From positions 124,001-188,000 of the forward strand of contig JACPUU010000001.1 in NCBI GenBank assembly GCA_016192075.1: 64,000 bases of DNA. The letters run 5' to 3'. Under the pieces are notes generated by a model that did not search any database, was not told where the DNA came from, and saw only the letters and a program-made list of their open reading frames with translations. Positions within the stretch are counted from its first letter, which is position 1. Each line of letters opens with the position of its first letter. The DNA is from Bacteroidota bacterium (lineage in GTDB: Bacteria; Bacteroidota; Bacteroidia; Flavobacteriales_D; Crocinitomicaceae). Positions 59,551-62,279 of the stretch are shown here, piece after piece. A program made the position numbers and the translations under genes.

Positions 59551-59838
59551 TTACCGGCTGCTGATTTTTTTCAATATTTTGTGATCAGCCACAAAGGTTC
59601 CAAAGGGTAACAAAGAAGCCAGCAACACCCAAAATAAGGTTCCAAAATTCCACTTTATCTGAATGTGAACAGCAAAAGCTAACACCATGTAAAGCAGAAA
59701 TAAAACGCCGTGTATCATGCCCACATAAAAAGTGGGTTCAGCTATTTGCCAGATGTATTTGAGCGGCATGGTAACTGCTAAAATTACCAGGAATGAAGTG
59801 CCCTCGAGCAGGGCAATGAGTCTGAAAAATGGAACCAT
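59551..59838 (-). CDS. DUF3817 small membrane protein
   Basis: A 95-residue protein with three predicted membrane helices (FFRLIALLEGTSFLVILAV, FYVGMIHGVLFLLYMVLAFAV and FGTLFWVLLASLLPFGTFV), matching DUF3817. Function unknown. Its ATG overlaps the MarR stop (TAATG), so translation is coupled. Last gene of the DoxX-YceI-OB-MarR-DUF3817 operon. Confidence 0.9.
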   Translation of the reverse strand: MVPFFRLIALLEGTSFLVILAVTMPLKYIWQIAEPTFYVGMIHGVLFLLYMVLAFAVHIQIKWNFGTLFWVLLASLLPFGTFVADHKILKKISSR

Positions 59839-60290
59839 TAAAAACCGGTTCTTAATTTATCCAGCATGTCATTCATTTTCTTTGCTTCTGCTTCAGAAAT
59901 ATGATTCAGCCGTTTGTCCATTTCTTTTTCCCAGCCATCAATTTCTTTCAATAAATCAAGACCTTCTTTAGCGATTTTAACATCTTTCTGTCGTCTGTCT
60001 TCGCTGTTTTCAGAACGCTCAACCAGTTTTTTCTGAACCAGGCGTTCCAAAATACGGCTGACATCTGAATTGCGGTCAATCATTCGTTCTTTAATCAGTC
60101 CAATGCTGACAGATTTTTGATTTTGTCCGCGTAAAATGCGCAGCACATTGTATTGAGTAGGGGTAATGTCGTATTTTTTGATGGTGTGCTGAAAACATTC
60201 ACCAAGGCGGGATGTCGTGAGCATCATATTGACCATGAGTTTATGATATTCGTTCCGGAATCTGGATTTTAATTCATCTTCAATTTTCAT
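59838..60290 (-). CDS. MarR family transcriptional regulator
   Basis: A 150-residue winged helix-turn-helix regulator. There is an N-terminal dimerisation helix, then ITPTQYNVLRILRGQ, then a recognition helix region (IGLIKERMIDRNSDVSRILERLV) and a wing (KKLVERSENSEDRRQKDVKIAKEG). The DRRQKDV wing is typical of MarR proteins. It is the fourth gene of a five-gene operon whose promoter contains a perfect 16-bp palindrome. It probably represses its own operon in response to a small ligand or oxidant. There are few cysteines, so a ligand sensor is more likely than a thiol switch. Confidence 0.93.
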   Translation of the reverse strand: MKIEDELKSRFRNEYHKLMVNMMLTTSRLGECFQHTIKKYDITPTQYNVLRILRGQNQKSVSIGLIKERMIDRNSDVSRILERLVQKKLVERSENSEDRRQKDVKIAKEGLDLLKEIDGWEKEMDKRLNHISEAEAKKMNDMLDKLRTGF

Positions 60291-60330
60291 AAACTCGGTT
60301 GAATGGTTGCGCGAAATTAGTGATTAAATC

Positions 60331-60789
60331 TTAAAAGTAGGCTTGTTCAAGTATGGCATCCAGGTAGCGGCCAAAGTCCTCGTCATAGACCGGACCTGCG
60401 CTGACAACGCCCGTAATACTTGTTTTTTCACCAATTTTAAGTGCCGCTGCTTTTTCATTTTCTTCTTCAAGCAGCGTGAACCGCACACCGGCATCGTGCT
60501 GATCACTTTTCATTTCAATAACTAGCTGCTGATTCAGATTGGTGTCAATGGCTGTAATTTTGCCAGACATGGTTACAATTTTGGAGTCACCGTCTTCAGC
60601 CAGGTATTTTTCATTGGCTGCATCCGGGTTTTTAATAAATTCAGTAACAAAATCAGTCACCTCAAATTCATCAAAAACTTCGGCAGTTTTTACATCACGA
60701 TGCGGTTCAAACCAAAGGTTCAATCCAAAACCAACGGTCAGCAGCGTAAAACAGCCTGCTGCCAAAGAGGGATATCTGAATTTATTCAT
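60331..60789 (-). CDS. OB-fold (tRNA_anti-like) membrane-anchored protein
   Basis: A 152-residue protein with an uncleaved or signal-type N-terminal helix (AAGCFTLLTVGFGLNLWF). A domain of the tRNA_anti-like OB-fold family follows: VTDFVTEFIKNPDAANEKYL, then VTMSGKITAID and the final ITGVVSAG, at about residues 50-150. In this family the domain is an exported OB fold, not a tRNA enzyme. The start overlaps the YceI stop by 8 nt, so both are in the same operon. Confidence 0.82.
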   Translation of the reverse strand: MNKFRYPSLAAGCFTLLTVGFGLNLWFEPHRDVKTAEVFDEFEVTDFVTEFIKNPDAANEKYLAEDGDSKIVTMSGKITAIDTNLNQQLVIEMKSDQHDAGVRFTLLEEENEKAAALKIGEKTSITGVVSAGPVYDEDFGRYLDAILEQAYF

Positions 60790-61309
60790 ACTCAGCTTTT
60801 ACAGTTAAGTCCAGCATTTGTGAAATGGAACCGTCTTTTCCGTCAATACCGTATAAAAAGCGGTCAAGCGTAAATGTTGCGCTGGCATAAATTTTACCAT
60901 TTTCAATTCTGATCATGGCTTTTGTTTCAATGGGCAGCGTTGTTTCTTTGATTGTCAGGGAACCTTTTACGGTTATTTTATAATCACCGTTTTTTTGATA
61001 ATTGACAGATGCGTTATTGGTAATTTCCCCAACAAATTTAGCCCGCGGAAACGTTCTTGAATGCATCACATCTTCCTCGTTAAAATGCTTTTGCATGGTT
61101 GCATTTTCAAACATAAAACTTTGAATGGCAAAACTAAAAATCAGCTGACCGGTTTCTGTATTCAGGTCGCTGATGCCGGAGTAGTTTTCAGCCAAAACGT
61201 CTTCGAGCTCTGAATAAAAACTAACAAAAGCTGTTTCGGTTGTTCGCACCTGCGAAAAAACAGAAAACGAAGCGGATGAAAAAAGCAGCAAAAAAAATAC
61301 GCGTTTCAT
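60782..61309 (-). CDS. YceI family protein
   Basis: A 175-residue exported lipocalin-like protein with a signal peptide (ending about residue 19). YceI proteins bind isoprenoid or other lipid-like molecules such as quinones. Conserved parts are FVSFYSELEDVLAENY, SFMFENATMQKHFNEEDVM and the strands ITVKGSLTIKETTLP. Its start overlaps the DoxX stop by 4 nt. With DoxX upstream it may take part in quinone or redox handling at the membrane. Confidence 0.9.
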   Translation of the reverse strand: MKRVFFLLLFSSASFSVFSQVRTTETAFVSFYSELEDVLAENYSGISDLNTETGQLIFSFAIQSFMFENATMQKHFNEEDVMHSRTFPRAKFVGEITNNASVNYQKNGDYKITVKGSLTIKETTLPIETKAMIRIENGKIYASATFTLDRFLYGIDGKDGSISQMLDLTVKAEYE

Positions 61310-61683
61310 ACCTTGATTTTTTTTAGTTTGAGATACAGGTAACAGATCCAGATGACGAGCAATATGGCCAGCGGAAAATAGAACGGTTCGTGGTGTTTGA
61401 TATGGGTAAAAATGGCGCCTGCCAGAACCCCGCTCAGCAATGCACTGGCGCTGAAGTTTGTTTTGGGAATAAGCAGTAAAACAGCACCGGTAATTTCAAC
61501 CCAGGCAATGGTGTTTTTCCAGGCGGTCAGGTTCCATTTTGAAAAGTTGTTGACGACAGTTTCAGCATCTGTGAGTTTCATGTAAGCGCTTGCCATAAAA
61601 ACAAGTGAAACCGCTACCAGTACACTGTAATAACTGATTTTCTGAAAGGGCCGGGTTTGGTTTTGTGTCGAAAGTGGTTCCAT
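61306..61683 (-). CDS. DoxX family membrane protein
   Basis: A 125-residue inner-membrane protein with four helices and DoxX features (FMASAYMKLTDAETV, WVEITGAVLLLIP, GAIFTHIKHHEPF). Relatives are subunits of quinol oxidases or thiosulfate:quinone oxidoreductase, or components of redox-stress complexes. It is the first gene of the operon and is preceded by a good promoter and the palindrome at 61719-61734. Confidence 0.88.
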   Translation of the reverse strand: MEPLSTQNQTRPFQKISYYSVLVAVSLVFMASAYMKLTDAETVVNNFSKWNLTAWKNTIAWVEITGAVLLLIPKTNFSASALLSGVLAGAIFTHIKHHEPFYFPLAILLVIWICYLYLKLKKIKV

Positions 61684-61698
61684 AATTAATCAGAGATA

Positions 61699-61729
61699 CA
61701 AATATACGTCTGAACATAATATGTTGCAA
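61699..61729 (-). promoter_or_regulatory. Promoter of the DoxX-YceI-OB-MarR-DUF3817 operon
   Basis: On the minus strand TTG (61729-61727), 20 nt, TATATTTG (61706-61699), then 15 nt to the DoxX ATG. A complete -33/-7 match. The -33 TTG falls in the middle of the palindrome at 61719-61734. Confidence 0.85.
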
Positions 61730-61734
61730 CATAT
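61719..61734. promoter_or_regulatory. Palindromic operator, probable MarR binding site
   Basis: ATATGTTGCAACATAT, a perfect 16-bp palindrome with TTG/CAA in the centre, overlapping the -33 element of the operon promoter. Size and position fit a MarR repressor site, and a MarR gene is in this operon. Confidence 0.8.
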
Positions 61735-61793: not shown

Positions 61794-62279
61794 TTAATTG
61801 CCAAGCGATTTGGCAGATTCCATCACCTGTTTTTTCAAGTCGTCTTTGTACGCCTCAATTTTTTTACGGATGATTTCATTGGAAGCCCCAATAATACTGG
61901 CAGCCAGTATTCCGGCATTTTTAGCGCCATTGAGTGCAACTGTAGCAACCGGAATGCCGCCTGGCATTTGCAGAATGGAAAGAATAGAGTCCCACCCGTC
62001 AATTGAATTGGATGATTTGATGGGTACACCAATAACCGGCAGGGCTGTTAGTGAGGCGGTCATACCGGGTAAATGAGCTGCTCCGCCGGCGCCGGCAATA
62101 ATAACTTTCAGGCCCCGTGATGCAGCTGACTTTGCATATTCAACCATGTGTTCCGGTGTCCGGTGAGCTGATACCACGTTAATTTCGTAGGAAATTCCAA
62201 ACAGTTTAAGCATTTCGGCAGCTTCCTGCATAACAGGTAAGTCTGATTTGCTCCCCATAATAATTCCAACTTCCGGCAT
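61794..62279 (-). CDS. purE: N5-carboxyaminoimidazole ribonucleotide mutase PurE
   Basis: Moves the carboxyl group of N5-CAIR to form CAIR in purine synthesis. It has 161 residues of the class I type. Conserved motifs are [13 protein letters not shown], the SAHRTPEHM loop and [15 protein letters not shown]. It follows purK by 41 nt, and the two steps are linked. Confidence 0.97.

Follow-up and report, generated by a model that had tools for sequence, protein, structure and literature searches.

The window, the whole stretch of 64,000 nucleotides analysed here, contains five minus-strand genes at positions 59551-61683, preceded by a promoter that is covered by a putative operator. These features are as follows, with coordinates given as positions of the window.

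61794-62279, minus strand: upstream neighbour ORF, presumably purE-like; a locus marker outside the module
61722-61731, minus strand: site 1 of the putative operator, TGTTGCAACA; core of a 16-bp palindrome, including the -33 TTG
61707-61716, minus strand: site 2 of the putative operator, TGTTCAGACG; follows site 1 at a spacing of 15 bp and abuts the -7 box
61699-61706, minus strand: -7 promoter box, TATATTTG; follows site 2 directly
61306-61683, minus strand: DoxX_2 membrane protein of 125 aa (Pfam DoxX_2, 51.1 bits, over the curated cut-off)
60782-61309, minus strand: YceI lipocalin-like protein of 175 aa (Pfam PF04264, 50.9 bits against a cut-off of 23.7)
60331-60789, minus strand: OB-fold protein of 152 aa (Pfam tRNA_anti-like, 39.6 bits, over the curated cut-off)
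59838-60290, minus strand: MarR-family regulator of 150 aa (Pfam PF01047, 38.5 bits against a cut-off of 24.6)
59551-59838, minus strand: DUF3817 protein of 95 aa (Pfam DUF3817, 93.5 bits, over the curated cut-off)

The five open reading frames lie where the sequence-only reading had placed them, and all of them exceed the curated Pfam cut-offs. The junctions of -4, -8, +40 and -1 nt given in that reading follow exactly from the ORF coordinates: the DoxX and YceI genes overlap by 4 nt, the YceI and OB-fold genes overlap by 8 nt, a gap of 40 nt separates the OB-fold gene from the MarR gene, and the MarR and DUF3817 genes overlap by 1 nt. Judged by its sequence, the regulator is a MarR-family protein. 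It also matches MarR_2 (38.2 bits against a cut-off of 27), and crystal structures of MarR proteins match a profile of 14 relatives, the best being 3u2r_A with an E value of 3e-24. None of the NCBIfam models reaches its cut-off with this protein, the best being HpaR with 45.3 bits against 121.2. The OB-fold protein has a hydrophobic stretch at its N-terminus. The N-terminus of YceI, which belongs to an OB-linked clade, is also hydrophobic by eye, and a search of this protein against the PDB by sequence gave no match at an E value of 0.01.

A TTG-N20-TATATTTG promoter with its -33 element inside a perfect palindrome had been proposed for this operon, and both are confirmed in the leader. The perfect 16-bp palindrome ATATGTTGCAACATAT is located at 61719-61734 and includes the -33 TTG, so that the putative operator overlaps the promoter of the operon of MarR itself. 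In the sequence searched of its own 4.65-Mb genome, the exact 16-mer occurs only once, and the 12-mer core ATGTTGCAACAT also has one mismatch-free copy. A second, weaker palindrome, TGTTCAGACG, was overlooked in the first reading. A TTTG/TAnnTTTG promoter type is known from Bacteroidota. When the second site and the -7 box were scored in 19 leaders that had been selected by site 1 alone, with the window and L035, a near-copy of L033, left out of the alignment, the match of the second site to TGTTNNAACA peaked at +15 (mean 5.74 of 8 against 2.44 +/- 0.70 over offsets). The TAnnTTTG box, counted from where site 1 starts, peaked at +25 (4.74 of 6 against 1.97 +/- 0.64), and in the leaders of relatives 20 nt separate the peak of the box match from the site 1 centre. 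A clear second site is absent in five of the 19 leaders (L055, L056, L075, L076 and L110). The alignment supports a double structure of the putative MarR operator, in which two palindromes are placed 15 bp apart.

The recurrence of the operator near MarR operons was assessed in 155 MarR-chain leaders drawn from 95 loci, with 251 other leaders of the same loci as a control; enrichment in such leaders is by itself compatible with a factor other than MarR binding. The window (L002) and two loci whose genomes are shared with L012 and L013 (L072 and L107) were excluded, and 95 of the 107 remaining loci were usable. At one mismatch or less, TGTTGCAACA was found in 20 of the 155 MarR-chain leaders and in 2 of the 251 controls (Fisher p 2e-7), although two of these 20 leaders, L075 and L110, lack both the second site and the box and could have matched by chance. 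Exact TGTTNNAACA is present in 28 of the MarR-chain leaders against 6 of the controls, and it is found in 15 of the 18 YceI-headed leaders, of which L033 and L035 are near-copies. In one genome (G022), the MarR gene and a remote YceI gene have one site each. The nine best MarR matches in related genomes (L003-L011), which are 54-68% identical to the window protein, carry exact TGTTNNAACA in five leaders; it is missing from those of L004, L005, L007 and L010. Furthermore, when one mismatch is allowed, TGTTGCAACA is still missing from the leader at 75 of the 95 usable MarR loci. The operator proposed from the window is thus enriched in MarR-chain leaders, but it is not universal, even among the closest regulators.

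A composite pattern, TGTTNNAACANNNNNTGTTNNNACNTANNTTTG, which has no mismatch in the window, was searched at one mismatch or less in 395 Bacteroidota genomes of 171 genera, with the reversed sequence as a control. This search gave 25 rows corresponding to 23 distinct places in 23 genomes and 19 genera, whereas the reversed composite gave 2 rows in one genome. The two central bases, left free in the pattern, are GC in 20 of the 25 rows. The sequence-only reading had made its operator depend on the palindrome being present upstream of orthologous operons, and this check came out in favour of the operator: 21 of the 23 composite places lie directly upstream of module genes, namely YceI (18), MarR (2) or the DoxX gene of the window, and without the window 20 of 22 lie upstream of YceI or MarR. 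MarR follows YceI at 15 of the 18 composite-YceI places; in L142, L144 and L157 the 1.5 kb fetched shows no MarR. At two places, L143/L162 and L161, both YceI and MarR are missing. What the sequence itself shows is the set of genes and a tandem operator that recurs and stands at operon heads.

The long palindrome is a poor marker, and the composite works better. The exact 16-mer was rejected as a phylum marker, being present in one of 395 class genomes, that of the window; beyond these genomes it was found at the loci L011, L033, L035, L036, L049, L116 and L118. A 14-mer palindrome was found in 10 of 299 order genomes against one in the reversed control. In G000, G022, G060 and G082 it stands before the window operon, before a YceI gene or before a CDGSH-MarR unit, and in G046 before a MoeA gene; the other five places are not tied to the module. 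The ORF caller was a simple longest-ORF script, and the YceI genes of L156 and L239 and the OB-fold gene of L240 were recovered by rescans. The called start of YceI overlaps the site in L159 and lies upstream of the sites in L049.

Irrespective of whether an operator is visible there, the genes that neighbour MarR relatives encode pirin, LigB (DOPA-type) dioxygenase, NmrA and other NAD(P)-binding proteins, as well as nitroreductase, AhpC/TSA, CDGSH, thioredoxin-like proteins and a glyoxalase-type dioxygenase with a carboxylesterase. A curcumin-reductase-like neighbour scores below its cut-off. In a tally of 59 neighbour proteins, pirin is the most frequent (6), and LigB, NmrA, nitroreductase and glyoxalase occur three times each. 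Unrelated neighbours such as aconitase, PhoH and SAICAR synthetase are also present, and many MarR loci that have no site, for example those of Mucilaginibacter, also differ in their neighbours. The window operon itself carries none of the soluble redox enzymes. Because the operons of relatives carry pirin, dioxygenase, nitroreductase, NmrA, CDGSH and peroxiredoxin, a response to quinones or electrophiles appears to be the best reading, and a role of the window operon in quinone or redox stress is plausible.

A second, weaker site in the own genome, at C2:4282-4314, has three mismatches to the composite, a level at which the control search of this genome also gave 2+2 rows. It precedes a gene for a 4,5-DOPA-extradiol-dioxygenase at C2:3376-4257 (276 bits against a cut-off of 233), behind which lie a YCII gene, an ORF that matches nothing and a MOSC gene. 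The odds of this site are raised because homologues of the dioxygenase are present in seven MarR loci (L036, L038, L045, L089 and L158-L160), and in L158-L160, which belong to one genus, the dioxygenase gene directly follows the operator-YceI-MarR unit. Therefore, the DOPA-type extradiol dioxygenase is probably a further target of the regulon in the own genome only. As a conserved target across the family it was rejected: its homologues occupy 21 places in 20 of 59 genomes with few sites, the composite at three mismatches being found at one of them (own genome) and exact TGTTNNAACA within -350/+60 of the dioxygenase match at three (own genome, G004 and G024). A search for extra sites in the own genome by the 12-mer at two mismatches or less is uninformative because it gave 237 matches per strand against 242 in the control.

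MhqP of Bacillus subtilis is a DoxX-type protein. According to the available part of PMC6798810, MhqR of B. subtilis and Staphylococcus aureus is an autoregulated MarR-type quinone repressor with an inverted repeat in the promoter region; its targets are ring-cleaving dioxygenases, nitroreductases and phospholipase/carboxylesterase, and it is inactivated by methylhydroquinone with no thiol mechanism. As with MhqR, a palindrome lies in the own promoter of the window regulator, and the operons of its relatives share the MhqR enzyme families in addition to DoxX. However, the window has tandem TGTTNNAACA at -33/-7, whereas the S. aureus operator is described there as one 9-9 bp TATCTCGAA-type repeat from -6 to +12, and such a TATCTCGAA-type operator is not seen in the window. 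YceI is frequent here but absent from what that part of the MhqR account covers. Target enzymes of the dioxygenase, nitroreductase or carboxylesterase type occur beside MarR relatives and may also be controlled in trans in the own genome, but are absent from the window operon. The quinone regulators YodB, CatR and QsrR have similar target enzymes, as far as the same part of PMC6798810 goes. The window MarR probably works like an MhqR.

The reading that we prefer, with a probability of roughly two in three, is that the operon would be one local version of a MarR regulon that extends across Bacteroidota and is autorepressed through tandem palindromes and released by a quinone- or catechol-type electrophile. 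MarR dimers would occupy both palindromes, which together span the promoter (61699-61731) from its -33 element down to its -7 box, thereby blocking transcription of their own operon. MarR would then be released by an electrophile of hydrophobic character, a quinone or a catechol-derived compound being the most likely. The released operon would supply the DoxX membrane protein, YceI as a binder of hydrophobic ligands together with its OB-fold partner, and DUF3817, and the second site in the own genome would probably add the DOPA-type extradiol dioxygenase. That this MarR is the binding protein is inferred, as are the repression, the class of inducer and the roles of the cargo.

The same autoregulated operon could instead respond to envelope or lipid damage, signalled by fatty acids, isoprenoids or detergents, with a cargo that repairs the envelope and with the redox genes of the relatives being incidental. 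Within four genes of MarR in 102 loci, YceI was found in at least 36, DoxX in at least 8 and DUF3817 in at least 7, these counts being lower bounds because the flanks of L003-L031 span 1.5 kb per side. That YceI is the most constant of the four partners looked for agrees with an envelope signal, as does the appearance of DoxX, YceI, the OB-fold protein and DUF3817, by eye or by family, as membrane, anchored or secreted proteins. However, nitroreductase, AhpC, LigB, NmrA and pirin recur beside MarR relatives, which makes a signal of envelope damage unlikely.

Somewhat less likely still is a thiol redox sensor, in which oxidation or alkylation of a cysteine releases MarR. Such a sensor is suggested by Cys95, which is located three residues ahead of the DRR motif in 34 of 46 operator-linked MarR proteins, a group assembled by hand. 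However, Cys95 also occurs in 34 of the 71 relatives for which no operator was seen, and therefore does not distinguish the regulon. The window MarR has Asn95, and its sole cysteine, Cys32, is outside the columns that have cysteine in at least 5% of 117 relatives. QsrR senses through a conserved Cys5, whereas MhqR of S. aureus operates without a thiol mechanism (both from the available part of PMC6798810); in the window MarR, the sole Cys32 is not conserved and Cys95 is missing. Thiol oxidants and hypochlorite, which had been put forward as inducers, are not favoured because the window MarR has Asn95, and ligand binding in a pocket appears to be the likelier mode of sensing.

It is quite improbable that the palindromes are the sites of another regulator, or simply a conserved promoter with MarR nearby. 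Because site 1 overlaps the -33 element, promoter function alone could explain why the site is conserved to some degree and keeps a constant distance from the -7 box, and many MarR relatives have no site. However, the site shows symmetry, is tandem in most cases, and stands ahead of whichever gene heads the operon, be it YceI, DoxX, CDGSH or MarR. Moreover, nine other palindromes built from the same half-site letters match 0-2 leaders, against 20 for TGTTGCAACA.

The five-gene system, which the sequence-only reading had regarded as a unit, is seen solely in the window, and although its overlapping genes and single promoter would suit evolution and inheritance as one coherent system, this is very improbable. 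The set is absent from all 102 of the other MarR loci, although the flanks of many are short; an OB-fold homologue is found in no MarR locus except that of the window; and where OB-YceI pairs occur elsewhere, the stretches read contain no MarR gene of this family. Of the eight loci from the same taxonomic family with the closest MarR (L003-L010), seven have DUF3817 after MarR, and seven have, upstream of the MarR operon, an ORF (159-163 aa) similar in size and location to the purE-like neighbour of the window. YceI is added ahead of MarR in L003 and L004, and DoxX is added in L008. The OB-fold gene adjoins YceI in all nine OB loci read, the strongest nine of 23 places outside the window operon, including a paralogue in the own genome at C9. 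The window YceI groups with those of L003 and L004 and with eight OB-linked YceI proteins (11 rows, support 100/100), and it lies outside a 40-row group that holds most YceI proteins of operator-bearing operons. By this grouping, it is not orthologous to the YceI of a typical YceI-MarR operon. The operon therefore looks like a local build, in which MarR-DUF3817, arranged as in close relatives, is joined to a separate, recurrent YceI-OB pair.

Because the window YceI belongs to the OB-linked clade, the regulator would have acquired a different YceI lineage, and the OB partner apparently came with it. Such an acquisition suggests that the YceI protein as such is required in the circuit. A possible but tentative extension is that YceI carries the ligand sensed by MarR, an envelope lipid quinone or a quinone-derived electrophile. 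Non-orthologous YceI lineages, one of them with an OB partner, would then have been recruited because the circuit needs a carrier of this compound.

The available part of PMC5350466 describes the YceI family as broadly conserved and its physiological function as unclear. The YceI-family protein BcnA of Burkholderia cenocepacia is, according to the same part, a secreted ligand binder made under chemical stress; it is tied there to antibiotic capture, whereas the window YceI lies behind a putative MarR operator and belongs to an OB-linked clade. The gene of MgxR in Burkholderia xenovorans is numbered next to a YceI gene, and MgxR responds to the electrophile methylglyoxal; its host is a different organism, and the comparison here covers the YceI neighbour and the electrophile response (available part of PMC4349456). 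In the open-licence PMC literature, judged mostly by title and the start of the abstract, no description of this operator or regulon was found. In the same literature, there was no match for YceI with MarR and DoxX, or for YceI with MarR in Bacteroidetes or Flavobacterium, and TGTTGCAACA did not appear as a bacterial operator by title among the matches listed.

A regulator with a putative operator and candidate co-regulated enzymes makes the role of YceI testable, because it can be asked whether the inducer of MarR is the same compound as the ligand of YceI. To our knowledge, few stress regulators of Bacteroidota have known sites. The composite, with 23 places in 395 genomes and 21 of them at module genes, is specific enough to annotate part of the regulon in Bacteroidota. 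If YceI does carry the ligand sensed by MarR, the tandem operator would mark an undescribed, phylum-wide quinone-homeostasis regulon of Bacteroidota.

The genome that contains the window carries a second operator-like site and further copies of operon components, and related sites lie at other loci.

L164:4282-4314 (own genome, contig C2, outside the window): second operator-like site, with 3 mismatches
L232:4947-8322 (own genome, contig C9): paralogous OB-YceI pair, preceded by a 773-aa ORF
L040:4153-4292: two operator-like sites between a pirin-like ORF (assigned by eye) and divergent CDGSH-DoxX-MarR genes
L113:1501-1514 and L166:3012 (C1 of genome G046): exact TATGTTGCAACATA upstream of a MoeA gene

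The C2 site is followed after 24 nt by the start of a 4,5-DOPA-extradiol-dioxygenase gene and then by genes for a YCII protein, a 186-aa ORF without a match and a MOSC protein. The own genome has six YceI matches, and the ORF ahead of the C9 pair looks RND-like by eye. The layout of L040 is as if a single MarR controlled both directions. The palindrome in G046, which begins 54 nt ahead of the MoeA gene start, is either an extra target or a chance occurrence.

MarR relatives of Mucilaginibacter and kin (41–47% identity; L066, L075, L077, L081, L090, L096, L099, L111 and similar loci) are preceded by a recurrent trio of ORFs of about 315, 198 and 312 aa, the last of which is a metallo-beta-lactamase-fold protein in L066. 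The tandem operator site is absent at these trio-linked loci, which probably represent a different regulon.

Alignment position 95 of MarR is Cys in 34 of the 46 relatives whose operons bear an operator-like site and in 34 of the 71 other relatives, and Asn in the window MarR (59838-60290). The clade to which the window MarR belongs may have lost sensing through a thiol.
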